64,000 bases of DNA from the NCBI GenBank assembly GCA_016871715.1, contig VHCO01000011.1, forward strand, positions 1 through 64,000, in the 5' to 3' direction. The notes beneath the pieces are model-generated. The model was not told where the DNA came from. It was given only the letters and a program-made list of their open reading frames with translations, and made no database searches. The stretch comes from Verrucomicrobiota bacterium. GTDB taxonomy: Bacteria > Verrucomicrobiota > Verrucomicrobiia > Limisphaerales > J093. A program made the translations under genes and the position numbers. This document shows positions 33,627-47,688 of this stretch, one piece after another (position 1 is the first letter of the stretch; every line of letters starts with the position of its first letter).

Positions 33627-33734
33627 GACCGTCTGCCGGTAGGGCGCGCAGTCCTCTGCGCGCCGCAAACCGCCGTGGACCTGGAGAGCCGCGGTGCGCA
33701 ATGGACTGCGCGCCCTACCGGCGGCTTGTGGTCC
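33627..33734 (-). repeat. Palindromic dispersed element, copy A (inverted)
   Basis: The outer arms 33635-33654 (GCCGGTAGGGCGCGCAGTCC) and 33703-33722 are a perfect 20-bp inverted repeat. Inner arms containing GCGCGCCGC and GCGGTGCGC also pair imperfectly. Read on the minus strand the element aligns along its whole length with copy B at 35956-36066. It ends 27 bp before the oxidoreductase start. Confidence 0.8.
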
Positions 33735-33761
33735 ACCTTGGCGACTGACGATTAAGCTGCC

Positions 33762-35955: not shown

Positions 35956-36066
35956 GGACTACAAACCGGCGGTAGAGCGCGCAGTCCTCTGTGCGCCGCG
36001 GCTGCCTGTGCCCACACCGGTCTGCGGCGCGCAGAGAGGATTGCGCGCTCTACCAGCAGTCTGTCC
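35956..36066 (+). repeat. Palindromic dispersed element, copy B
   Basis: Arms around GGTAGAGCGCGCAGTCC and GGATTGCGCGCTCTACC are near-perfect inverted repeats. Inner arms GTGCGCCGC and GCGGCGCGC also pair. The full 110 bp matches the reverse complement of copy A, with the same flanking GGACnACAAnCCG. It is a small non-autonomous repeat with no coding capacity. Confidence 0.8.
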
Positions 36067-36371: not shown

Positions 36372-36803
36372 ATGCAGGCGGCTTATTTTGATGATTTGAT
36401 CTACATCGCTGCGTTTGGGCTGGGTGGGCTGGTGTTTGCCCTCGGGCCATTCGTGGTGGTGCACCTGCTGTCGGCGCGTCGGACGCGCAACTACGCCAAC
36501 AAGACCGGGCAGTTCATCGAGTGCGGCATGGACCCGATTGGGGATGCGTGGATCCGGTACAGCGCGGTTTATTATCTGTATGCGCTGGTGTTCGTTGCGT
36601 TTGCGGTGGATGTGCTTTTCCTGATACCGGTAGCGTTGGTCTACGACCGGCAGTTTGCGGTGCGGGACTTGGTCGAGCTGGTGATGTTTGTGGGGATTCT
36701 CTCCCTGGTGATCGTGTACGCTTGGAAGAAAGGGGTTTTCGAATGGAAACAAAAGCGGCCTGCTCCCAAGACTGCTCAGAAATCGTCAAGTTCGCCGTCC
36801 TAG
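36372..36803 (+). CDS. nuoA: NADH-quinone oxidoreductase subunit A
   Basis: NuoA is a small three-helix subunit at the junction of the membrane and peripheral arms of complex I. The 143-aa protein begins at ATG 36372 ([16 protein letters not shown]). It shows the conserved loop [20 protein letters not shown] with the cysteine of the active/deactive loop, and [13 protein letters not shown]. The track ORF adds 53 unrelated residues. Its last 61 bp overlap nuoB in another frame, much longer than the 4-base overlaps elsewhere in this operon. Confidence 0.93.
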
Positions 36804-37252
36804 ACGACCTCTTGGCCCTGGGACGAGCCAACTCGTTGTGGCCGCTGACCTTCGGCTTGGCGTGTTGCGCGATCGAGATGATGGCGGCTGGCGCCTCGCG
36901 CTTCGACCTCTCGCGCTTTGGCGCCGAGGTGTTCCGACCCTCGCCGCGGCAAGCGGACGTGATGATTGTGGCGGGGACGATCAACAAGAAGATGGCGCCG
37001 GCGGTGAAGACGCTCTACGACCAGATGCTCGAACCCAAGTGGGTGATTGCCATGGGCAACTGCGCGATCTCTGGCGGGCCCTTTGTCTATCCAGGCCAGT
37101 ACGCGGTGGTCGAGGGGGTGGACAAGCTGTTTCCAGTAGACGTGTACATTCCGGGCTGCCCGCCGCGCCCGGAGGCGCTGATCGAGGGGATTTTGGCGTT
37201 GGAGGAGAAACTGACCGGGAAGCGGCGCTGGCCCCGGGTGAAGCCGGAATGA
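36743..37252 (+). CDS. nuoB: NADH-quinone oxidoreductase subunit B (cluster N2)
   Basis: NuoB holds the terminal [4Fe-4S] cluster N2 that passes electrons to quinone. The 169-aa protein starts at ATG 36743 after AAGGGG. Cluster ligands are visible: [12 protein letters not shown] (adjacent Cys pair), [11 protein letters not shown] and [14 protein letters not shown]. Its stop overlaps the nuoC start (ATGA). The start lies inside nuoA by 61 bp. Confidence 0.95.
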
Positions 37253-37806
37253 GCCTTACCCTGCAGCAACTGCAAGCGCACCTCGGCGGGCTGGTTTTCG
37301 CACCACCCGAGCCGGCGGCGGCGGCTGCTGGGCCGCCCACTTCGCCGGAGCGGTCCTCGCCGCCGGAGTCCGAAGCCGTGCCGTCCTCTGCCGCGACGGC
37401 GCCAGAGCCCGACGGGGTGCGGCTGGTCGATTATGCGTCCCGAGGCGTGCACCTGGAGGTTCGCACGCCGGCCAGCCAAGTGGTCGCGGCGGCCGAGCTG
37501 CTGGACCGTGAGGGATTCGCCTTGGATGCCGTCACGGGTGTGGATTGGATTGCCCAGGGGGAGATGGAGGTGATCTACGATTATTTCCATCCGACGGCTC
37601 CCTGGCGAGTGGCGGTCCGCTCGCGCATCCCCCGAGACCACCCGCAGGTCCCCACCATCTCGGCCGTGTTTCCCGGCGCAAACTGGCACGAGCGCGAGAC
37701 GCATGATTTCTTCGGCATCCGGTTTCTTGGGCACCCAGACCTGACGCCGTTGTTGTTGCCCGAGGACGCGGACTTTCACCCTTTGAAGAAGGACTTTGCG
37801 GTGTGA
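37249..37806 (+). CDS. nuoC: NADH-quinone oxidoreductase subunit C
   Basis: NuoC is a 30-kDa-type peripheral arm subunit. The 185-aa form starts at ATG 37249, overlapping the nuoB stop. An unusual Ala/Pro/Ser-rich insert lies at about 19-55, before the folded domain. The C-terminal signature is intact: [24 protein letters not shown], then [16 protein letters not shown]. It is not fused to NuoD, unlike in E. coli. Confidence 0.93.
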
Positions 37807-38939
37807 CGACCGAAGAGATCATGGCGGTCGCGCAGGGCAAGGCGCCGAACGAGACGTTCGTCTTGAACCTCGGGCCGCAGCATCCGGCCACCCACGGCGT
37901 GCTCCGGGTCAAGCTGACCATGGACGGCGAGTACATCACCCGCGCCGAACCGGTGCCTGGCTACATCCACCGGATGCAGGAGAAGATGGGAGAAAACCGG
38001 ACCTGGGCGCAGTACCTGCCGAACACGAGTCGGATCGATTACCTTTCGGCGATGGCGTACACGCACGGCTACGTGGGCGCGGTCGAGCGGGCGGCTGGGA
38101 TTCAGGTCCCGCCCCGAGCGGAGTACGTGCGGGTGATCACCTCCGAGTTGAATCGGATCTCGAGTCATCTGGTCTGGTTCGGCGCCTTTCTGTTGGATCT
38201 GGGTGGGTTCACCCCGTTGTTGTACGCCTTTGACGATCGGGAGAAGATTCTGGATCTGCTCGAGGGGATTACCGGCTCGCGGTTGACGTACTCCTACTAT
38301 CGGTTTGGCGGGCTCTACAACGATGTCGATGAGGACTTCCTCGGGGGGACCCGAGAGTTTGTGGCGCAGATGCGGCCGCGGCTGGGGATGTACCGGACGT
38401 TGGTGACGGAGAACATCATCCTGCGCAAACGCCTCGAGGGCATCGGGGTGATCACGCCCGAGCAGTGCCGCAAGTACGGCGCGACCGGCCCGGTCATCCG
38501 CGGCTCGGGCATCGCCTATGACGTTCGCAAGGTCGAACCCTACTCGGTCTATGCGGATTTCGAGTTCGACATCCCGGTGTTTCCCGAGGGCGACTCGATG
38601 GCGCGGTACCTGGTGCGCATGGAGGAGATGGGTCAGAGCCTGCGGATCATCGAGCAAGCGCTCGCCAAGCTGCCGGATGGGCCGGTGATGGCGGAGAAGG
38701 TGCCGCGCGTGCTCAAACCACCCGCCGGCGATTACTGCTACGCGGTCGAGGCGGCGCGGGGCCGGTTTGCCGTGCTCGTCGTCAGCGACAACAAGGAGAT
38801 GGCCTATCGCATCAAGCTGCGGACGCCGTCGTTCTCGAATCTCAGCCTGTTCGAGGAGGTTAGCCAGGGGATGATGCTGCCCGACGCGCTGGCTTTGATG
38901 GGCAGTCTGGACTTGGTCATCCCGGACATCGACCGTTGA
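37803..38939 (+). CDS. nuoD: NADH-quinone oxidoreductase subunit D
   Basis: NuoD forms the quinone pocket with NuoB. The protein is 378 aa with a GTG start overlapping nuoC (GTGA). NLGPQHPATHGVLRVKL near the N terminus carries the conserved quinone-pocket His. LTYSYYRFGGLYNDV and GPVIRGSGIAYDVRK follow, and IKLRTPSFSNLS stands near the end. It is slightly shorter than typical (about 400 aa). nuoE, nuoF and nuoG would come next in standard operons but are absent. Confidence 0.95.
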   Translation: MTTEEIMAVAQGKAPNETFVLNLGPQHPATHGVLRVKLTMDGEYITRAEPVPGYIHRMQEKMGENRTWAQYLPNTSRIDYLSAMAYTHGYVGAVERAAGIQVPPRAEYVRVITSELNRISSHLVWFGAFLLDLGGFTPLLYAFDDREKILDLLEGITGSRLTYSYYRFGGLYNDVDEDFLGGTREFVAQMRPRLGMYRTLVTENIILRKRLEGIGVITPEQCRKYGATGPVIRGSGIAYDVRKVEPYSVYADFEFDIPVFPEGDSMARYLVRMEEMGQSLRIIEQALAKLPDGPVMAEKVPRVLKPPAGDYCYAVEAARGRFAVLVVSDNKEMAYRIKLRTPSFSNLSLFEEVSQGMMLPDALALMGSLDLVIPDIDR

Positions 38940-38945
38940 GTTGCC

Positions 38946-39935
38946 ATGAGCCTTCCGGAACCGTTCAGATTGCTCGCTTACCTGCTGGGGATCATGGCCT
39001 TTGTGGGGCTCAACGCCGCCTACTTGGTCTGGGTCGAACGCAAAGGGGCAGGGCGTTTTCAGCGGCGGCCGGGTCCGACCGAGGTGGGTTACGCCGGGCT
39101 GCTGCAGCCGATCGCCGACGCGGTCAAGCTGCTGACCAAGCAAGTCATCGTCCCGCCGGGGGCGGACGCCACGCTGTTTCGGCTGGCGCCGGTGGTGGTG
39201 TTGGCGCCGGCGTTGATGTGCCTGGCGATCATTCCGTTCGGGCCACATCTGGTCGCCCGCGAGATCAACGTCGGTCTGCTGCTGTTGTTCGCCTTCGGGT
39301 CGATCAACGTGATGGCGATTATGATTGGCGGGTGGGCCTCGCGCAATAAGTACGCCATCATCTCGGCCGCGCGCGTGGTGTCGCAGGATGTCGCGTACGA
39401 AATCCCGATGCTGTTGGTGGTCATTACGATGCTCATGGTGACCGGCACGATGGATCTGAACCAGATCGTGCGCCAACAGGCCGGCGCCTTTTGGAATTGG
39501 AACCTGTTCAAGCTGGCGGCCAATCCGCTCATGCCGGTCACTTTCGTCATCTTCTACATCTGCATGCTGGCGGAGACCAACCGCGCCCCGTTCGATATGG
39601 CGGAGGCGGAGAGCGAGTTGGTCGCCGGCGCGTTCACCGAGTACGCCGGCATGGGGTTCGGCGTGTTCTTCATGGCCGAATACGCCAACATCGTGGTGGG
39701 CTGCGCGGTGGCGACGGTGCTGTTCCTGGGCGGTTGGCAGAGCCCGATCGGGATTCTGCCGGGCGCGTTTTGGTTCCTGCTCAAGCTGTACGCCCTGGTG
39801 TTTTCAGTGGTTTGGGTGCGGTGGACGTTTCCGCGCACCCAGTTCTACGGACTGTTGAATCTCTCGTGGAAGATCTTGATCCCGATCGCTTTGTTCACCC
39901 TCATCCTGTCCAGCGTGATGCTGAAGCTCTTTTAG
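38946..39935 (+). CDS. nuoH: NADH-quinone oxidoreductase subunit H
   Basis: NuoH is the heel subunit that links the quinone cavity to the proton channel. The 329-aa protein has about eight helices. Family stretches are YLVWVERKGAGRFQRRPGP, NKYAIISAARVVSQDVAYE, ICMLAETNRAPFDMAEAESE and VAGAFTEYAGMGFGVFFMAEY. It follows nuoD after a 6-bp gap. Confidence 0.95.
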   Translation: MSLPEPFRLLAYLLGIMAFVGLNAAYLVWVERKGAGRFQRRPGPTEVGYAGLLQPIADAVKLLTKQVIVPPGADATLFRLAPVVVLAPALMCLAIIPFGPHLVAREINVGLLLLFAFGSINVMAIMIGGWASRNKYAIISAARVVSQDVAYEIPMLLVVITMLMVTGTMDLNQIVRQQAGAFWNWNLFKLAANPLMPVTFVIFYICMLAETNRAPFDMAEAESELVAGAFTEYAGMGFGVFFMAEYANIVVGCAVATVLFLGGWQSPIGILPGAFWFLLKLYALVFSVVWVRWTFPRTQFYGLLNLSWKILIPIALFTLILSSVMLKLF

Positions 39936-39936
39936 C

Positions 39937-40380
39937 ATGAAACAGCCCCTCCGTGATATCGTCGGCGGCTTCTACAGCCTGCTCTCCGGGATGCGCGTGA
40001 CGATCGCGCAGTTCTTCAAGCCGTCGGTGACCGTGCATTACCCGCACGAGTCGCTCCAGATGCCGGCGCGCTTCCGCGGCCACATCGAGTTGGTGCGCGA
40101 CCCGGCGACCGGCAAGGCCGTTTGCTTCGCCTGCAAGGTGTGCGAGAAATCCTGCCCGAGCGACTGCATCACGGTCGAGGGGGCCAAGCTCGAGGGGGCC
40201 AAGCGCAAGTCGGTCACGCAGTTCCGGCTCGACTTCACCAAGTGCAGCTTGTGCGGTTCGTGTGTCGAGGCGTGCAAGAGCAACGCGATCCGGTTCAGTC
40301 GCCAGTACAACCTGGCCAGCACCAACAAGGATGAGTTCGTGATGGACCTGTTCAAGCGCCTGGAGGCGGAGGGCCAATGA
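39937..40380 (+). CDS. nuoI: NADH-quinone oxidoreductase subunit I (2x[4Fe-4S])
   Basis: NuoI holds clusters N6a and N6b between the peripheral arm and N2. The 147-aa protein has two ferredoxin motifs: CFACKVCEKSCPSDCI and CSLCGSCVEACKSNAI. The residue after the fourth cysteine of the second motif is Lys instead of the usual Pro. It begins right after the nuoH stop and overlaps nuoJ by 4 bases. Confidence 0.94.
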   Translation: MKQPLRDIVGGFYSLLSGMRVTIAQFFKPSVTVHYPHESLQMPARFRGHIELVRDPATGKAVCFACKVCEKSCPSDCITVEGAKLEGAKRKSVTQFRLDFTKCSLCGSCVEACKSNAIRFSRQYNLASTNKDEFVMDLFKRLEAEGQ

Positions 40381-40910
40381 CGGGATTCCCCGGCTCCGAG
40401 GCGATTGTCGCCGGTATTTTCCTGGTGGCCGTGGCGACCACGGTGGCCGGCGCGTTGATCGCCGCGCTCACCACACGCATCATCCGCAGCGTCTGCGGCC
40501 TGGCCCTGTGCTGTGTCGGCTTGGCCGGCCTCTACTACTTCCTCCATAGCCCGTTCCTGGCGCTGATGGAGATCCTGATCTACGTCGGAGCGGTGTGTGT
40601 GACGATTGTCTTTGCGATCATGCTGGCCGAACCTGAGGAAAGCGCGGCCCAGGAAAAGCGGGGCACGGTTTGGCTCGGGTCGGCCGTCGGCCTGGTCTTG
40701 GGCGGGGCCATCTTCTGGGGCTTGGCCCGCTTGGGCCTAGCGGGGCCGTGGTCGGTGCCCGCGACACGGGTGACGGACGGTTCGGTGCCGGCGCTGGGCG
40801 TGGCACTGCTGACCACCTACAGCATGGCCTTCGAGCTGATCTCGCTGGTGCTCCTAGTCGCGATTCTGGGGGCCCTGGTCATCGCGCGGACGGGGAGAAC
40901 CCAACCATGA
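40377..40910 (+). CDS. nuoJ: NADH-quinone oxidoreductase subunit J
   Basis: NuoJ is a five-helix subunit next to NuoH and NuoK. The 177-aa protein contains LMEILIYVGAVCVTIVFAIML, the pi-bulge helix region typical of NuoJ. The long hydrophilic/Ala-rich loop follows. It has 4-base overlaps on both sides (ATGA). Confidence 0.93.
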   Translation: MTGFPGSEAIVAGIFLVAVATTVAGALIAALTTRIIRSVCGLALCCVGLAGLYYFLHSPFLALMEILIYVGAVCVTIVFAIMLAEPEESAAQEKRGTVWLGSAVGLVLGGAIFWGLARLGLAGPWSVPATRVTDGSVPALGVALLTTYSMAFELISLVLLVAILGALVIARTGRTQP

Positions 40911-41233
40911 CGCTGACCAACCTCCACGAACAACTGGGTGTCTACCTGGTGTTGGCGGCCTTTCTGTTCGCCACGGGCGTGTACGGGTTGGTCCGACGCC
41001 GGACCTTGATTGGGATGCTGATAGCCGGCGAGCTGATCTTCGCGGCCGCCTCCCTGAATCTGATGGCGCTGAACCGGTTCGTGGCGCCCGACCCGGCGGT
41101 GGGCCAGATCTTTGTGTTGTTCATCATGGGCTTGGCGGCGGCGGAAGTGGCCATTGCCTTGAGCATCGTGATCGCGGTCTACCGCAATTACCGGTCCGTC
41201 AACGCTAAGGACTTGTCCGACCTCAACGGGTAG
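40907..41233 (+). CDS. nuoK: NADH-quinone oxidoreductase subunit K
   Basis: The 108-aa subunit starts at ATG 40907 within the nuoJ stop. Three helices carry GMLIAGELIFAAASLNLMAL with the conserved membrane Glu, and GLAAAEVAIALSIVIAVYRN with the second Glu. These two carboxylates form the half-channel leading to the antiporter-like subunits. The ORF track lists only a longer read-through frame (40670-41233). Confidence 0.94.
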   Translation: MTLTNLHEQLGVYLVLAAFLFATGVYGLVRRRTLIGMLIAGELIFAAASLNLMALNRFVAPDPAVGQIFVLFIMGLAAAEVAIALSIVIAVYRNYRSVNAKDLSDLNG

Positions 41234-41237
41234 CCGC

Positions 41238-42713
41238 ATGGAAACGCCCCACGATCTCCGCTTGCTCTTCGCCATCCTCGCGCCCCTCGTCGGGACCGGG
41301 TTGGTGATGGCGGCCGGCCGGCGACCGAATCTGAGGGAGGGCTGCTCGTTCCTGGCGGCGGCGACTCTGTTTGGCCTGACGATCTCCCTGGTCCCGGACA
41401 TTCGGGCGGGCAAGACGCTGCACTATACCCTCTTCGAGCTGCTGCCCGGCCTGAGCTTCGCGTTGCGCGCGGACGCTATGTCCATGATCTTCGCGGTGTC
41501 GGCCTCCTCTCTCTGGATCATCACGGTCTTCTACTCGGCCGGTTACATGCGCGGCTTGCAGGAACACGCGCAGACCCGGTTTGGCGCCTGCTTCGCCCTG
41601 GCCTTGTTTGGGGCCATCGGGTGCGCCTTTGCCGACAACCTGCTGACGCTCTATCTGTTCTACGAGATTGTCAGTGTCTGTACTTACCCGTTGGTGGCTC
41701 ATCACCAAGACGAGGAAGGGTACGCCGGCGGCAAGAAATACCTCGTCTACCTGACCGGCACGGCCAAAGGTCTGATCCTGCCCGCCATGGTGCTGATCTA
41801 TGTCTTGTCCGGCACCCTCGATTTCGCCGACAACATTCAGACGGGCATTCTCCCGCCCGAACTGCACCGGGGCCTGGTGACCGGCCTGTACATCGCTTGC
41901 CTGCTGGGCTTCGCCAAGAACGGCATCATGCCGCTCCATCATTGGCTGCCCGGCGCCATGGTCGCCCCCACGCCCGTGAGCGCCCTCCTCCACGCGGTGG
42001 CGGTGGTCAAGGTCGGCGTGTTCTCGACCGCCCGCGTCATGCTCTACGTCTTCGGTGTCGATTGCATGGACGCCCTCAACCTCGGGATACCGACCGCGTA
42101 CTTTGTCTCGTTCACCATCCTGGGCGCGTCGGTGGTCGCCCTGAGCACAGACGACCTCAAGGCGCGGTTGGCGTACTCGACGGTCAGTCAGCTCTCGTAC
42201 ATCATCCTTGGGGTGGCGTTGCTCAAACCGGCGGCGCTCCAGGGCGGCCTGTTGCATATCGCCCATCACGCCTTTGCCAAGATCACCCTCTTCTTCTGCG
42301 CGGGGGCGATCTACGTGGCGACCCATAAGAAGAAGATCTCCGAGATGAGCGGTTTGGGCCGAGCGATGCCCTTCACCTTCGGCGCGTTCGCCATCGCCTC
42401 GCTGAGCATGATTGGCGCCCCGCCCGTCGCGGGCTTCGTCACCAAATGGTATCTGCTGCTCGGCGCCCTCGATGCCGGGTCGATCGGGATCCTGGTGGTC
42501 TTGATCGCCAGCACCTTGCTCAATGCGGCGTACTTCGCCCCGGTGGTCTACCAGGCCTTCTTCGGCAAGGCCGCTGACTCGGGCGGTGGCCACGGCCACC
42601 GCGAAGCGCACCCAGCCATGGTGATCCCGCTGAGCATCAGCGCGGTCATCTCGGTGTTGCTGGGCATCTACCCCGATTTCTTCGCCCGTTTTGTCCAAGC
42701 CATGTTGCCATGA
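41238..42713 (+). CDS. MrpD-like proton-pumping antiporter subunit (extra complex I subunit)
   Basis: This 491-aa protein of about 14 helices lies directly after nuoK, where nuoL is expected. It resembles MrpD-type cation/H+ antiporter subunits more than NuoL. Key residues are kept: Glu in YLFYEIVSVCTYP, Lys in GFAKNGIMPLHHWLPGAM, Lys in VAVVKVGVFSTAR and the late Lys in GFVTKWYLL. It lacks the long C-terminal lateral helix of NuoL. It overlaps the small two-helix gene by 4 bases, so it belongs to the operon. Confidence 0.85.
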   Translation: METPHDLRLLFAILAPLVGTGLVMAAGRRPNLREGCSFLAAATLFGLTISLVPDIRAGKTLHYTLFELLPGLSFALRADAMSMIFAVSASSLWIITVFYSAGYMRGLQEHAQTRFGACFALALFGAIGCAFADNLLTLYLFYEIVSVCTYPLVAHHQDEEGYAGGKKYLVYLTGTAKGLILPAMVLIYVLSGTLDFADNIQTGILPPELHRGLVTGLYIACLLGFAKNGIMPLHHWLPGAMVAPTPVSALLHAVAVVKVGVFSTARVMLYVFGVDCMDALNLGIPTAYFVSFTILGASVVALSTDDLKARLAYSTVSQLSYIILGVALLKPAALQGGLLHIAHHAFAKITLFFCAGAIYVATHKKKISEMSGLGRAMPFTFGAFAIASLSMIGAPPVAGFVTKWYLLLGALDAGSIGILVVLIASTLLNAAYFAPVVYQAFFGKAADSGGGHGHREAHPAMVIPLSISAVISVLLGIYPDFFARFVQAMLP

Positions 42714-42973
42714 GATTGCTGCGTTGGATCGAGTTCCTGCGAAACCGCCTGCGGACGGTGGTTTGGGTCTGCCTGGTGGTGCTGGGCCTCCTTGTGGTGG
42801 TGGACGCCCTGCCGGGGCTGGTGGACAAAGAGCATCATGCCCATACCGCCCCCGAGCGATGGCCGGCCTTTTGGGCCGTGTTCGGATTCGTCGGGTGCGT
42901 CGCCTTGATCGTCTTGTCGAAGTGGTTCGGGCACGCCGGCATCATGCAGCGCGAGGATTACTACGATGAGTGA
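42710..42973 (+). CDS. Small two-helix membrane protein within the nuo operon
   Basis: The 87-aa protein has two hydrophobic segments (WVCLVVLGLLVVVDALPG and FWAVFGFVGCVALIVLS) around a His-rich loop (DKEHHAHTAPERW). It ends in acidic/Tyr residues (EDYYDE). It overlaps both neighbours (4 and 8 bp). Its place between two MrpD-like subunits suggests a structural part of this complex. No known complex I subunit matches it. Confidence 0.75.
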   Translation: MRLLRWIEFLRNRLRTVVWVCLVVLGLLVVVDALPGLVDKEHHAHTAPERWPAFWAVFGFVGCVALIVLSKWFGHAGIMQREDYYDE

Positions 42974-44759
42974 TTGGTGGGTCCATCCGGCGTCGATCTT
43001 GATCCTCGGCGGCCTGCTGCTGCGGTGGGTGCCCGCGCGGTTCAAACGCGCTTATCTCCTGCTCGTCCCTCTTCTCGTCTTCGGGCGCATCCTCGGCCTG
43101 ACCCACGGCACCTTCGGCCAGGTCCAGTTCCTCGAGTGGACGTTGGTCTTCGGGCGCGTCGATGCCTTGAGCACCGTCTTCGGGTACATCATGAGTCTGA
43201 TGTGCCTCCTGGGCACGCTGTACGGACTCCATGTCCGGGACGATGGCCAACATCTGGCCGCCTGGACCTATGTGGGCGGTTCGCTGGGGGCCATTTACGC
43301 AGGCGATTTGCTGACCTTGTTCTTGTTCTGGGAACTCATGGCGCTCTCGTCCGTGTTCCTCATCTGGTGCCGGCGCCGCCCCGAATCTCTGGGGGCAGGC
43401 TTCCGCTACCTGCTGGTACACACCGCGGGCGGTGTGGCGCTGCTGGCAGGCATCGTCCTGCACGGCCAGGCGACGGGCGGCGACCTGACCTTCGGCGCGT
43501 TCGATGTCAAGGCGCCGACGCTGGCGACCTATCTGATCATGACCGGCTTCATCCTCAACGCGGCGGTGCCCCCGCTCCATGCCTGGCTGCCGGACGCGTA
43601 CGGGGAGGCCACGTTCAACGGTTCAGTGTTCTTGTGCGCCTTCACCACCAAGACCGCGGTCTACGCGTTGTGCCGCGGGTTTGCCGGCATGGAGATCCTG
43701 GTGCCCTTGGGGGTGATCATGGCGCTCTATGGCGTCGTCTATGCCGTGCTCGAGAACGACTGCCGCCGCCTGCTCGCCTATCACATCATCAGTCAGGTGG
43801 GTTACATGGTCGCCGGCGTCGGGCTGGGGACCGAGTTGGCCATCAACGGCGCCTGCGCGCACGCCTTCGCGCACATCCTCTACAAGGGCCTTCTGTTCAT
43901 GGGTTGCGGCGCCGTCCTGCACATGACCGGCCAGAGCAAGTTCACCGAATTGGGCGGGCTCTACCAGAAGATGCCCTGGACCTTCCTCTTCACCCTGCTG
44001 GGAGGGCTCTCGATCTCGGCGTTCCCCCTCTTCAGCGGTTTTGTCAGCAAATCGATGATCGTGGCGGCGGGTTTCGAGGAGCATAAGCTCTGGGCGGGCT
44101 TTCTGCTGATGCTGGCGTCGGTGGGCACCTTCTTGCACACGGGCCTCAAGGTCCCTTACTTCATTTGGTTCGGCAAAAACCACTGCCGACCGGAGACGTG
44201 GGCGCGGGCGGCGGAGCCGCCCTGGAACATGAACGCCGCCATGGCCGTGGCGTCGATCTTGTGCGTGTTCATCGGCTGCTATACTCCGTACCTCTACCAG
44301 ATGCTGCCTTACCCAGTCGACTACCACCCCTACACGGCCTATCACGTCTCGGAGACCCTGCAGGTGTTGTTGTTCACCGCCGTGGGCTTCTTTCTCCTGA
44401 TCTGCAAGCTCGAGCCCGAGCCCACCATCAGCTTGGACATGGACTGGTTCTATCGCATGGGCGGGCGCGCCTTTCGATGGCTGGCGCGCCAACCGGTTCA
44501 GCTCCTCGACACCTGCGTGGGTGAACTCTACCGGGTGGCGGGTATGGTACCCCTGATGCGCTCGGCTCGCCTGGCCGGTCGGTTCGATCAAAGCGTCATC
44601 GACGGGCTGGTGGACGGGTTGGCCCACAGCATCCGGGGTCTGGGCCAACGCCTGCGCGCCGTCCAGCGCGGCCACGTGCAGCAGAGCTTGGCGGTCGCCT
44701 TGGGTGTGGCGGCCCTGTTCATCCTGCTTTTCCTCCTGTTCTCAAGCGACCCGCGATGA
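42966..44759 (+). CDS. MrpD/NuoL-hybrid antiporter subunit
   Basis: This 597-aa protein has an MrpD-like core (about 1-420) plus a C-terminal extension with NuoL character. The extension reads FDQSVIDGLVDGLAHSIRGL, QRGHVQQSLAVALGV and a final helix. It is likely the functional NuoL, with a lateral helix. Glu in FLFWELMALSSV, Lys in AFTTKTAVYAL and Lys in GFVSKSMIV are present. The TM7 lysine of NuoL/M/N is Asn here (GFILNAAVPPLHAWLPDAY). From memory, other MrpD-like family members share this change. Confidence 0.85.
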   Translation: MSDWWVHPASILILGGLLLRWVPARFKRAYLLLVPLLVFGRILGLTHGTFGQVQFLEWTLVFGRVDALSTVFGYIMSLMCLLGTLYGLHVRDDGQHLAAWTYVGGSLGAIYAGDLLTLFLFWELMALSSVFLIWCRRRPESLGAGFRYLLVHTAGGVALLAGIVLHGQATGGDLTFGAFDVKAPTLATYLIMTGFILNAAVPPLHAWLPDAYGEATFNGSVFLCAFTTKTAVYALCRGFAGMEILVPLGVIMALYGVVYAVLENDCRRLLAYHIISQVGYMVAGVGLGTELAINGACAHAFAHILYKGLLFMGCGAVLHMTGQSKFTELGGLYQKMPWTFLFTLLGGLSISAFPLFSGFVSKSMIVAAGFEEHKLWAGFLLMLASVGTFLHTGLKVPYFIWFGKNHCRPETWARAAEPPWNMNAAMAVASILCVFIGCYTPYLYQMLPYPVDYHPYTAYHVSETLQVLLFTAVGFFLLICKLEPEPTISLDMDWFYRMGGRAFRWLARQPVQLLDTCVGELYRVAGMVPLMRSARLAGRFDQSVIDGLVDGLAHSIRGLGQRLRAVQRGHVQQSLAVALGVAALFILLFLLFSSDPR

Positions 44760-46261
44760 CCTCCCCAGGCCCAACTGCCGACCTGCCCGTGCTCAGCTTG
44801 CTGATCTTCGCGCCGTTGCTGGGCGCAGGCGTTGCCTCCGTGCTCAGGAACGAGCGCGCGCTGCGCTGGTGGAGCCTCGCCTGCACGCTGGTTGTGGCGG
44901 CCTCTTCGCTGCCTTTGTACGGGTGGTTCGACATCGGCACGGCCCAGTTCCAGTTTGTCGAGCATGCGGCCTGGATTCCTTGGCTCAACATCCATTACAC
45001 CCTGGGGTTGGACGGCATCAGCCTGCTGCTGGTGCTGCTGACCACGTTGATCATGCCGTTGTGTGTGCTCGCCTCGTGGCGCTACATCGCCACGCGCGTC
45101 AAGGAGTTCATGGTCTGCCTGCTGATCATGGAAGCGGCCATGATCGGCGTCTTTTGCGCCTTGGACTTCGTTCTCTTCTTCGTGTTCTGGGAAGCGATGT
45201 TGATTCCGATGGCTTTGCTGATCGGCATCTGGGGCGGGCCGCGCAAGGTTTATGCTGCGCTCAAGTTCTTCATCTACACCATGGCCGGCTCGGTGTTCTT
45301 GCTGGTGGCCATCATCGCCCTCTATCTCGAGGCGGGCACTTTTCACATCCCGGACCTCATGGGGCGCCCGTATGCCACGGGATTTCAGTGCTGGGTGTTC
45401 CTGGCCTTCTTCCTGTCCTTCGCCATCAAGGTGCCGATGTTCCCGTTCCACACCTGGCTGCCGGCGGCCCACGTCGAGGCGCCTACCGCCGGCAGCGTGG
45501 TCCTCGCCAGCATCCTGTTGAAGATGGGCACGTACGGTTTCCTGCGTTTTTCGCTGCCAATCGCCCCAGCGGCAACGCACTTGTTCACCCCGTACGTCCT
45601 CGGCTTATCCGTCGTGGCCATTCTCTACGGCGGCTTCACGGCGCTGGCGCAGAGCGACCTCAAGAAATTGGTCGCCTACTCGAGCGTCGGCCACATGGGT
45701 TTCGCTACGCTCGGCATCTTTACCTTGAACGCCAGCGGCATCGAGGGCGCCGCCCTGGTGATGGTCAATCACGGGGTGACCACCGGCGCCCTGTTCATCG
45801 CTGTGGGCATTATTTTCGAACGCTTGCACACGCGCGACCTGTCGCAGACCGCCGGTCTGGGCAAGTTCATGCCGATCTTCGCCGGGTTCCTGGGGGTGTT
45901 CTGTTTGTCGTCCTTGGCCTTCCCAGGCACCAATAGTTTCATTGGCGAGTTCCTCGTGTTGAGCGGCGGCTTCGCGTACTCGAAAGCGCTGGCCATTAGC
46001 GTTGTGCCCGGCGTGATCCTGGCCGCGGCTTACATGCTGCGCATGTTGCAGACGGTGGCTTACGGCGGCGTGCGCAACCCGAGCCATGCGGGCTTGGCCG
46101 ACCTCGAGGGGCGCGAGATCCTCACCCTGGCCCCGCTGCTGGTCTTCGTGTTTTGGATTGGGCTCAATCCGGAACCGTTCACTCGCGTCCTCGACGCCAC
46201 GGTCCAACATCTCCTCGCCCAGGTGCATCGCGCCGGTCCGCTGACTTCGTCGTTGCCATGA
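44756..46261 (+). CDS. nuoM: NADH-quinone oxidoreductase subunit M
   Basis: NuoM is an antiporter-like proton pump. The 501-aa protein has LGLDGISLLLVLLTTLIMPLC, then FVFWEAMLIPMALLIGIWGG (TM5 Glu), SFAIKVPMFPFHTWLPAAHVEAPTAGSVV (TM7 Lys; cited in parts) and LLKMGTYGFLRF. The late lysine of other antiporter subunits is Glu in FIGEFLVL, as is normal for NuoM. It has 4-base overlaps on both sides. Confidence 0.95.
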   Translation: MTSPGPTADLPVLSLLIFAPLLGAGVASVLRNERALRWWSLACTLVVAASSLPLYGWFDIGTAQFQFVEHAAWIPWLNIHYTLGLDGISLLLVLLTTLIMPLCVLASWRYIATRVKEFMVCLLIMEAAMIGVFCALDFVLFFVFWEAMLIPMALLIGIWGGPRKVYAALKFFIYTMAGSVFLLVAIIALYLEAGTFHIPDLMGRPYATGFQCWVFLAFFLSFAIKVPMFPFHTWLPAAHVEAPTAGSVVLASILLKMGTYGFLRFSLPIAPAATHLFTPYVLGLSVVAILYGGFTALAQSDLKKLVAYSSVGHMGFATLGIFTLNASGIEGAALVMVNHGVTTGALFIAVGIIFERLHTRDLSQTAGLGKFMPIFAGFLGVFCLSSLAFPGTNSFIGEFLVLSGGFAYSKALAISVVPGVILAAAYMLRMLQTVAYGGVRNPSHAGLADLEGREILTLAPLLVFVFWIGLNPEPFTRVLDATVQHLLAQVHRAGPLTSSLP

Positions 46262-47688
46262 CGTTCTCCTCCTTTCTGCTGGCCTTCTTGCCTGAATTGG
46301 CGCTGCTCGTGGGTGCGCTGGTCCTGTTCGTCATTTCCTTGGGCGAGGAGCGCGTGGACCGCGCGCGATCAGCCGCTCTTCTCGTCGCCGCCGCCGCCGC
46401 GGTCGCAAGCGCGCTGGGGTTGGGCCAACAGGCGCTCTTGTTCGATGGCGCCTACCGCATCGATGCCTTCTCGCAGTGGCTCAAGCTGGCGTTGACGGTC
46501 GGCTTTCTGTTGATCTTGTTGGCTAGCCGGGAGCTGCCCGACATCCGGCGCGACGTGAAGCCGGAGTATTACTTCTTCCTGGCGCTGAGCGTGTGCGGGT
46601 TGGTGATGTTAGTCAGTTGCGTCGAGGTCATCACCTTGGTGGTGGCCCTGGAGTTGTCCGCCTTCCCCCTGTATTTCCTGGTGGCGATGCGGCGGGAACG
46701 CGCCGGGCAGCGCAGTCAGATGGAGGCTGCCATCAAGTACATCATGTTCGGCATCGCCGCCAATGGGATCATGCTCTTCGGCCTGAGTTACCTGTTCGGC
46801 CTGACCGGAACGACATCGTTGCAGGGCATGGCCGCCCAGCTCGGGCCGGTCCTCCAGTCGCCCTTGGCCATGGTGGGTCTGGGGCTGACCTGTGTCGGGC
46901 TGTTCTACAAACTCGCCGTGTTCCCGTTCCATTTCTGGACCCCGGACGTTTACCAAGGCGCCTCGAACGAGACTGCTAGCCTCGTCGCTTCGCTCCCAAA
47001 GGTCGGGGCTGTGGCGGTCTTGGTCCGCTTCACCTCGCTGGCTGCGCCTGACGATCGGACCCTGCCCGGGCTGATCGCGCTGCTAGCCGGCGCCTCGATG
47101 TTCTACGGTAACCTCATTGCGCTGCAGCAGAAGGACCTCAAACGTCTGCTCGGGTTTTCGGGAATTGCCCATGCTGGCTATGCCTTGGTGGGGTTTGTGG
47201 CCCTGGACACCGCCGGCTACACAGCCGCCCTGTATTACATCGTCGGCTACTTGTTCATGGTTCTGGCCGGCTTCGTCGTCATCTCCCATGTCTCCCGAGA
47301 TGGCGCCAACGTCGCCCTCGAGGAACTCGCCGGCCTGCACCGGCGAGCGCCCCTCCTGGCGCTGACCCTGGTCGTGGGCATGTTCGCCTTGGCTGGCCTT
47401 CCCCCTTTCGTCGGGTTTTTCGGCAAGCTAGCGTTGTTGAAGGCGGCTCTGGCCAAGGGCTATTTGGCCCTAGTGATTGTCACCGTGATTAACGCCGCGA
47501 TTGCCGTCTACTATTACCTGGCCGTCGTCCGCGAAGCCTGCTTCCGGGATCCGGGCGACCAGCGCGCGATTCCCCTCTGTTGGTCCGCGCGCACGCTGTG
47601 CGGCTTGTTGATCGCCGGGATCCTGCTCTTGGGCGTCGGCCCCGCCCGAGTTCTCGAAACCATCGCCGGTTCGCTCTCCCCCCCGTGA
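46258..47688 (+). CDS. nuoN: NADH-quinone oxidoreductase subunit N
   Basis: NuoN is the last antiporter-like subunit of the membrane arm. The 476-aa protein begins at ATG 46258 overlapping nuoM; the track extension to 46153 lies inside nuoM. Features are VVALELSAFPLYFLVAMRR (TM5 Glu), LFYKLAVFPFHFWTPDVYQGA (TM7 Lys), LPKVGAVAVLVRF and FFGKLALLKAAL. It ends the operon. A decayed copy of its last 86 bp lies about 340 bp downstream. Confidence 0.94.
   Translation: MTFSSFLLAFLPELALLVGALVLFVISLGEERVDRARSAALLVAAAAAVASALGLGQQALLFDGAYRIDAFSQWLKLALTVGFLLILLASRELPDIRRDVKPEYYFFLALSVCGLVMLVSCVEVITLVVALELSAFPLYFLVAMRRERAGQRSQMEAAIKYIMFGIAANGIMLFGLSYLFGLTGTTSLQGMAAQLGPVLQSPLAMVGLGLTCVGLFYKLAVFPFHFWTPDVYQGASNETASLVASLPKVGAVAVLVRFTSLAAPDDRTLPGLIALLAGASMFYGNLIALQQKDLKRLLGFSGIAHAGYALVGFVALDTAGYTAALYYIVGYLFMVLAGFVVISHVSRDGANVALEELAGLHRRAPLLALTLVVGMFALAGLPPFVGFFGKLALLKAALAKGYLALVIVTVINAAIAVYYYLAVVREACFRDPGDQRAIPLCWSARTLCGLLIAGILLLGVGPARVLETIAGSLSPP

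Follow-up and report, generated by a model that had tools for sequence, protein, structure and literature searches.

The DNA analysed here (the window) is a stretch of 64,000 nucleotides from a Verrucomicrobiota bacterium (contig VHCO01000011.1, positions 1 to 64,000), which carries on its plus strand, at positions 36372-47688, a 13-gene operon for a respiratory complex I. The reading frames and family scans give the order nuoABCDHIJK, D1, p, D2, nuoM and nuoN, in which D1 and D2 are antiporter-like subunits and p is a small protein with two transmembrane (TM) helices. The genes are tightly packed: nine of the 12 junctions are overlaps, mostly of 4 bp and of 8 bp between p and D2, and the other three are gaps of 6, 1 and 4 bp. 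Neither NuoL nor NuoE, NuoF or NuoG was read at this locus in the frames and family scans, and none of MrpB, MrpC, MrpE, MrpF and MrpG accompanies D1 and D2 there. The original prediction, made from the letters alone, had described the same order, counted four subunits of the antiporter type, saw nuoL replaced by an Mrp-like pair and noted the absence of nuoEFG; all genes lie where it had placed them, and the family scans agree with it on each of these points. Its statement that complex I variants with an extra antiporter subunit exist was also correct, as the arrangement has been published as the green complex I of rhizobia (PMC9040806).

The proximal part of the operon comprises nuoA (36372..36803; 143 aa; PF00507, 88.5 bits), nuoB (~36743..37252, with an approximate start and an overlap of about 61 bp with nuoA; PRK06411, 236 bits, cut-off 116, and frame read), nuoC (37249..37806; 185 aa with an Ala/Pro-rich N-terminal extension; PF00329, 108 bits), nuoD (37803..38939; 378 aa, GTG start; PRK06075, 441.7 bits, cut-off 360), nuoH (38946..39935; 329 aa; NF004741, 320 bits, cut-off 305), nuoI (39937..40380; 147 aa with two four-cysteine Fe-S motifs; TIGR01971, 117.7 bits, cut-off 113), nuoJ (40377..40910; 177 aa; NF005168, 98.5 bits, under the cut-off of 154, the matching families all being NuoJ) and nuoK (40907..41233; 108 aa; PF00420, 66.4 bits). 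The distal end is formed by nuoM (44756..46261; 501 aa; PF00361, 248 bits, and PF01059) and nuoN (46258..47688; 476 aa, ATG at 46258; PF00361, 205 bits), which fall in the NuoM and NuoN clades of the tree described below. The predicted Q-module (NuoB, C, D and I) and proximal membrane module (NuoA, H, J, K, N and M) are standard.

The unusual portion lies between nuoK and nuoM. D1 (41238..42713; 491 aa) matches NF006236 with 825 bits (cut-off 663) and D2 (42966..44759; 597 aa) matches NF009310 with 752 bits (cut-off 564), both families being named cation/H+ antiporter subunit D. The protein p encoded between them (42710..42973; 87 aa) has homologues in 93 loci, a conserved C-terminus (SKW.GH.GIM.REDYYD) and model-predicted helices at residues 14-33 and 54-75, and gave nothing above the family cut-offs in Pfam. 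A tree built from 59 antiporter subunits, with SH-aLRT (approximate likelihood ratio test) supports, places D1 as the sister of NuoL plus MrpA (support 96) and D2 in a clade of its own (support 100), apart from NuoM, NuoN and the MrpD-like D0. D2 lies outside the NuoL clade and scores 153.8 bits against the NuoL family TIGR01974, under the cut-off of 407.5. The 597-aa protein had been described as the NuoL hybrid of the pair; it is instead the 491-aa D1 that groups with NuoL and MrpA, and D2 combines its separate phylogenetic position with a NuoL-like C-terminal helix. Placement of D2 as a plain NuoL, the phylogenetic outcome named as adverse to the original prediction, is contradicted by this separate clade.

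D1 contains the functional residues of an antiporter subunit, namely Glu143 in TM5, Lys227 in TM7, His252 and Lys258 in TM8 and Lys403 in TM12, of which His252 is of the NuoL type, and it has no lateral helix. D2 retains the glutamate of TM5 and the lysines of TM8 and TM12, with Asn198 in place of the TM7 lysine. Every one of the 98 homologues with coverage of this site has Asn there, so extra proton pumping is an unsafe inference, and the higher ion stoichiometry raised in the original prediction is less safe than it was put there; no ratio exceeding the canonical one is claimed. The TM7 lysine is replaced by Leu in two further subunits of the same genome, the canonical NuoM (contig C15, L020:3814-5406) and the second NuoM of another operon described below (contig C56, L021:4125-5726), and the Asn alone is accordingly no proof that D2 is inactive. 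The AlphaFold2 model of D2 (overall predicted local distance difference test score, pLDDT, of 82) contains a NuoL-type lateral helix at residues 494-564, of low confidence (pLDDT ~44-69), followed by a TM helix at residues 571-593, and a fold search returned MrpA and NuoL/NdhF chains as top matches. On the evidence of sequence and model together, the NuoL-type C-terminus belongs to D2 and the NuoL/MrpA-type core to D1.

The length of the lateral helix bears on the place of D1 in the membrane arm. The relevant comparison is with 2M complex I, which, as summarised in PMC9040806 from Chadwick et al. (2018), has a fourth antiporter-like subunit, keeps NuoL and doubles NuoM. The distance between the D-x-x-Y and Q-x-G anchors is 74 residues in D2, 45-50 in canonical NuoL (with a single pattern-search outlier of 54) and 74 in 2M NuoL; among the D2 copies of nuo operons it is conserved (Asp493 to Gln567): of the 81 full copies, 79 have 74 residues and two have 75, three further copies being partial. 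In a profile-profile alignment of D2 with NuoL, a later GELYR motif of D2 pairs with the NuoL motif, which leaves 47 residues to the Gln, as in the canonical subunit, and the 26-residue insertion in the 2M NuoL lateral helix is clear in the same test. The TM15-TM16 spacing of D2 is ~10-15 residues above canonical in the cases where TM15 is correctly found. The 74-residue spacing (+25) was thus rejected as proof of a helix spanning an extra subunit, since profile alignment and TM spacing disagree with it, and because the evidence on helix length is mixed, a helix that spans D1 is not claimed. D1 may sit at the tip of the arm, or between NuoM and D2 together with p. A possible, if rather doubtful, alternative is that D2 alone replaces NuoL in an arm of three antiporters with D1 peripheral, or that four are present and only three pump. 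The modest elongation of the D2 helix, put at ~10-15 residues by profile alignment and TM15-TM16 spacing as compared with the 26 of 2M NuoL, and the absence of the TM7 lysine from all D2 homologues would be in keeping with such an arm. Against it, D1 lacks none of the functional residues and always accompanies D2.

A search of 84,980 species genomes was used to assess the distribution of the operon, and the 80 best D2 loci, mainly from Verrucomicrobiota and Desulfobacterota, were analysed. The neighbourhood check suggested in the original prediction was borne out, with nuoK and D1-p-D2 together in 64 of these 80 loci; 44 have the complete nuoA to nuoN set, and in three nuoM is relocated before D1. 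None of the 64 loci, including the 44 complete relatives, has nuoEFG inside the operon. As the gene order is kept in dozens of genomes, it is not due to chance. Within the phylum of the window, 388 genomes from 199 genera were sampled, and 19 of them, belonging to 13 genera, have a close D2. Fifteen of these neighbourhoods were fetched, nine of which are nuo operons of the same order; the other six have no nuo genes and a second D1-like antiporter gene, and the two of them that were read further have Mrp-like small genes upstream.

The same cassette thus also occurs outside complex I. D1-p-D2 is found in Mrp-type operons at L109:3915-11803, L121:6616-11506, L143:9431-17300 and L138:631-11192, which carry another MrpD-like subunit and hence three MrpD-like proteins per locus; at L109 the cassette stands with MbhD/E, MnhB and the further MrpD-like protein. 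The C-terminal sequence of D2 is diverged in these operons, the lateral-helix sequence being retained only in nuo operons, and some of the Mrp-context copies nest within the nuo-context D2 clade. This nesting points to transfer of the cassette between nuo and Mrp-type operons, with loss of the helix sequence outside complex I.

The presence of NuoL and NuoG elsewhere in operon-bearing genomes was then scored, absence being defined as a NuoL below the TIGR01974 cut-off and as no NuoG match of at least 300 bits. No NuoL was found above the cut-off in 17 of the 22 genomes tested, and no NuoG match of at least 300 bits in 14 of 36, ten of these being Desulfobacterota. In 12 genomes (G277, G139, G396-G401, G405, G406, G408 and G409) neither protein was present by these definitions. 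Many of the genomes are metagenome-assembled, so that single absences are weak; the pattern recurs across Desulfobacterota. Since the operon is the sole nuo set with a NuoL candidate in those 12 genomes, D1 and D2 would have to serve as NuoL there, and the lack of NuoG makes a borrowed N-module unlikely. These results also bear on the view that D1-p-D2 is a cation/proton antiporter module merely co-transcribed with the nuo genes. The Mrp-type operons such as L109 and another full NuoL in the genome of the window speak for it; it is nevertheless very improbable, given the 17 genomes that have no NuoL above the cut-off, the adjacency to nuoK in 64 loci and a lateral-helix sequence retained only in nuo operons.

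The genome of the window (G000; 8.58 Mb, 94.5% complete) encodes 15 antiporter-type proteins. A complete canonical 14-subunit complex I, including NuoEFG and NuoL, lies on contig C15, and contig C56 (L021:2567-16412) carries a 2M-type operon in the order A-B-C-D-I-H-J-K-L-M-M-N without EFG. An Mrp operon whose MrpA has MbhD/E domains is found on contig C32, a group-4-hydrogenase-like set on contig C69, and three POR_N-type 2-oxoacid oxidoreductase genes are also present. The bacterium therefore seems to possess three distinct types of complex I, and in two of these the antiporter-like subunits number four. In a relative (G010) the green-type and 2M operons are located a few kb apart on one contig, which shows that their co-occurrence is not a binning artefact. 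Further 2M-type operons were seen at L185 and L186, and on C56 the gene of a 451-aa AAA+ ATPase (L021:9446-10801) sits between nuoK and nuoL. The original prediction had named a second nuo operon with nuoEFG and nuoL, combined with evidence for a separate antiporter, as what would speak against it; the former exists on C15, but nothing points to the latter, and there are relatives that have no other NuoL.

The NuoEFG of C15 raises the alternative that the locus is merely split, the complex being completed by these proteins or by HoxEFU-like subunits and oxidising NADH. Rhizobial green operons do contain EFG, and in another Verrucomicrobiota locus a HoxEF-like pair (L049:20041-21763) lies ~5 kb downstream of the nuoN of the green operon, with unrelated genes between. 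We regard this as unlikely in view of the 14 of 36 operon-bearing genomes that have no NuoG match of at least 300 bits, and of an EFG-less order that is the same in two phyla. Contig C135 also carries, at L025:5123-9108, an 805-aa NuoE-NuoF fusion that adjoins a 523-aa 2Fe-2S/flavin NAD(P) oxidoreductase-like protein; the pair may form an enzyme of the electron-bifurcating or the ferredoxin:NAD(P) kind.

In the window the flanks of the operon are unrelated to it, with a YceI-like gene upstream and a PQQ-repeat-like gene downstream, as judged by eye. In Desulfobacterota the flanks, likewise judged by eye, are housekeeping-like (mpl-like upstream and rimP/nusA/infB-like downstream), a context that fits an old, vertically kept locus. 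The window further contains a 108-bp imperfect palindrome at 33628-33735 (DNA fold of -44.7 kcal/mol, z -7.9), of which the genome holds at least 40 copies with 82-90% identity (40 of 326 candidates scored), and a resembling element lies just 5' of nuoA, at ~35966-36056.

Taken together, the operon probably specifies a green-type complex I that lacks the N-module, reduces quinone and pumps ions. All four antiporter-like subunits would be part of one membrane arm. A low-potential donor in the cytoplasm, with reduced ferredoxin as the likeliest candidate, would feed electrons in at NuoI, from which NuoI and NuoB would pass them to quinone, and the energy released would drive H+ or Na+ outward through NuoN, NuoM and D1. 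D2 would act as the strap-bearing subunit; as it has no TM7 lysine, it is doubtful that it pumps itself. The original prediction had offered ferredoxin or another donor, or nuoEFG elsewhere; the complete nuoEFG is indeed present on C15, and we infer ferredoxin to be the likely donor, in line with the two Fe-S motifs of NuoI, the three POR_N-type genes of the genome and the EFG-less enzymes known elsewhere (PMC11238625). Several points weigh against this reading. There is no clean 25-residue extension of the D2 helix as in 2M complexes, and the place of D1 is not fixed. The NuoEFG of C15, a Hox-like set on contig C75 and the NuoE-F fusion on C135 could in principle dock. A conserved electron-donor gene was sought beside the operon and none was seen, the Desulfobacterota neighbours being only housekeeping-like.

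A fuller version is put forward tentatively, as quite possible though short of probable: the operon may represent an old, N-module-free complex I with four antiporter-like subunits in which the tasks of NuoL are split, with D1 as the NuoL/MrpA-type channel and D2 as a strap that pumps little or nothing after loss of its TM7 lysine; in many Desulfobacterota this enzyme, fed by ferredoxin, would be the only complex I. In any case, the membrane arm of the green type is no rhizobial oddity, as it is conserved in Verrucomicrobiota and Desulfobacterota, there without the NADH module, and in these two unrelated phyla the EFG-less operon would be the only complex I of many genomes. The invariant Lys-to-Asn exchange in D2, and the allocation of the NuoL core and the lateral helix to separate proteins, would constitute a natural experiment on NuoL function, which bears on whether strap, channel or both are needed and on whether four antiporter subunits mean more ions per electron pair.

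The replacement of NuoL by two MrpD-like subunits is already known from rhizobial green complex I (PMC9040806). For the remaining features (the green form without EFG, how widely it occurs, its standing as the only complex I of many genomes, the NuoL-likeness of D1 and the invariant Asn of D2) no description was found, the original green and 2M papers lying outside the search; no earlier description of the arrangement was found in a cable-bacteria genome paper, and the passages found of a 2025 complex I survey do not describe the trio. Canonical 14-subunit complex I differs in having NuoL and NuoEFG, both absent from the window locus and present on C15. 2M complex I shares the fourth antiporter-like subunit, and its copy on C56 also has no EFG in the operon; it contains NuoL, with a lateral helix longer by 26 residues, and two NuoM, whereas the window operon has one NuoM and no NuoL. 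The EFG-less 11-subunit complex I-like enzymes of Desulfitobacterium, for which ferredoxin is the proposed donor and the partner is unproven (PMC11238625), likewise derive from a nuo operon without NuoEFG, but possess one NuoL and three antiporter subunits where the window operon has D1-p-D2 for NuoL. The Mrp-type operons (L109, L121, L138 and L143) have the D1-p-D2 cassette in common with it, and differ by the absence of the Q-module, the presence of MnhB, MbhD/E and more Mrp-like genes, and a diverged D2 C-terminus. Complex_I_3 of Ca. Manganitrophaceae has five antiporter subunits, NuoM being present twice, and the lateral helix of its D2 carries an insertion of 26 aa (PMC9040806); it shares the two green-type MrpD-like subunits, whereas here there is one NuoM and a D2 of rhizobial length. 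The closest likeness is to green complex I itself, with which the operon shares two MrpD-like subunits and a small protein for NuoL in a J-K-D1-p-D2-M-N block. A tblastn search of plasmids with D2 led to symbiotic plasmids of Sinorhizobium and Rhizobium (53-54% identity), and the D2 of the S. meliloti plasmids, 54% identical, has the same lateral-helix anchor spacing and likewise Asn for the TM7 lysine. The rhizobial loci are ordered J-K-D1-84aa-D2-M-N-A-B-C-D-E-F-G, nuoI and nuoH being encoded on the opposite strand, and thus contain nuoEFG, whereas in the window A-B-C-D-H-I come first and EFG is absent. Because nuoEFG is missing here and in all 44 complete relatives, the window operon is best classified as a variant, rather than a plain member, of green complex I.

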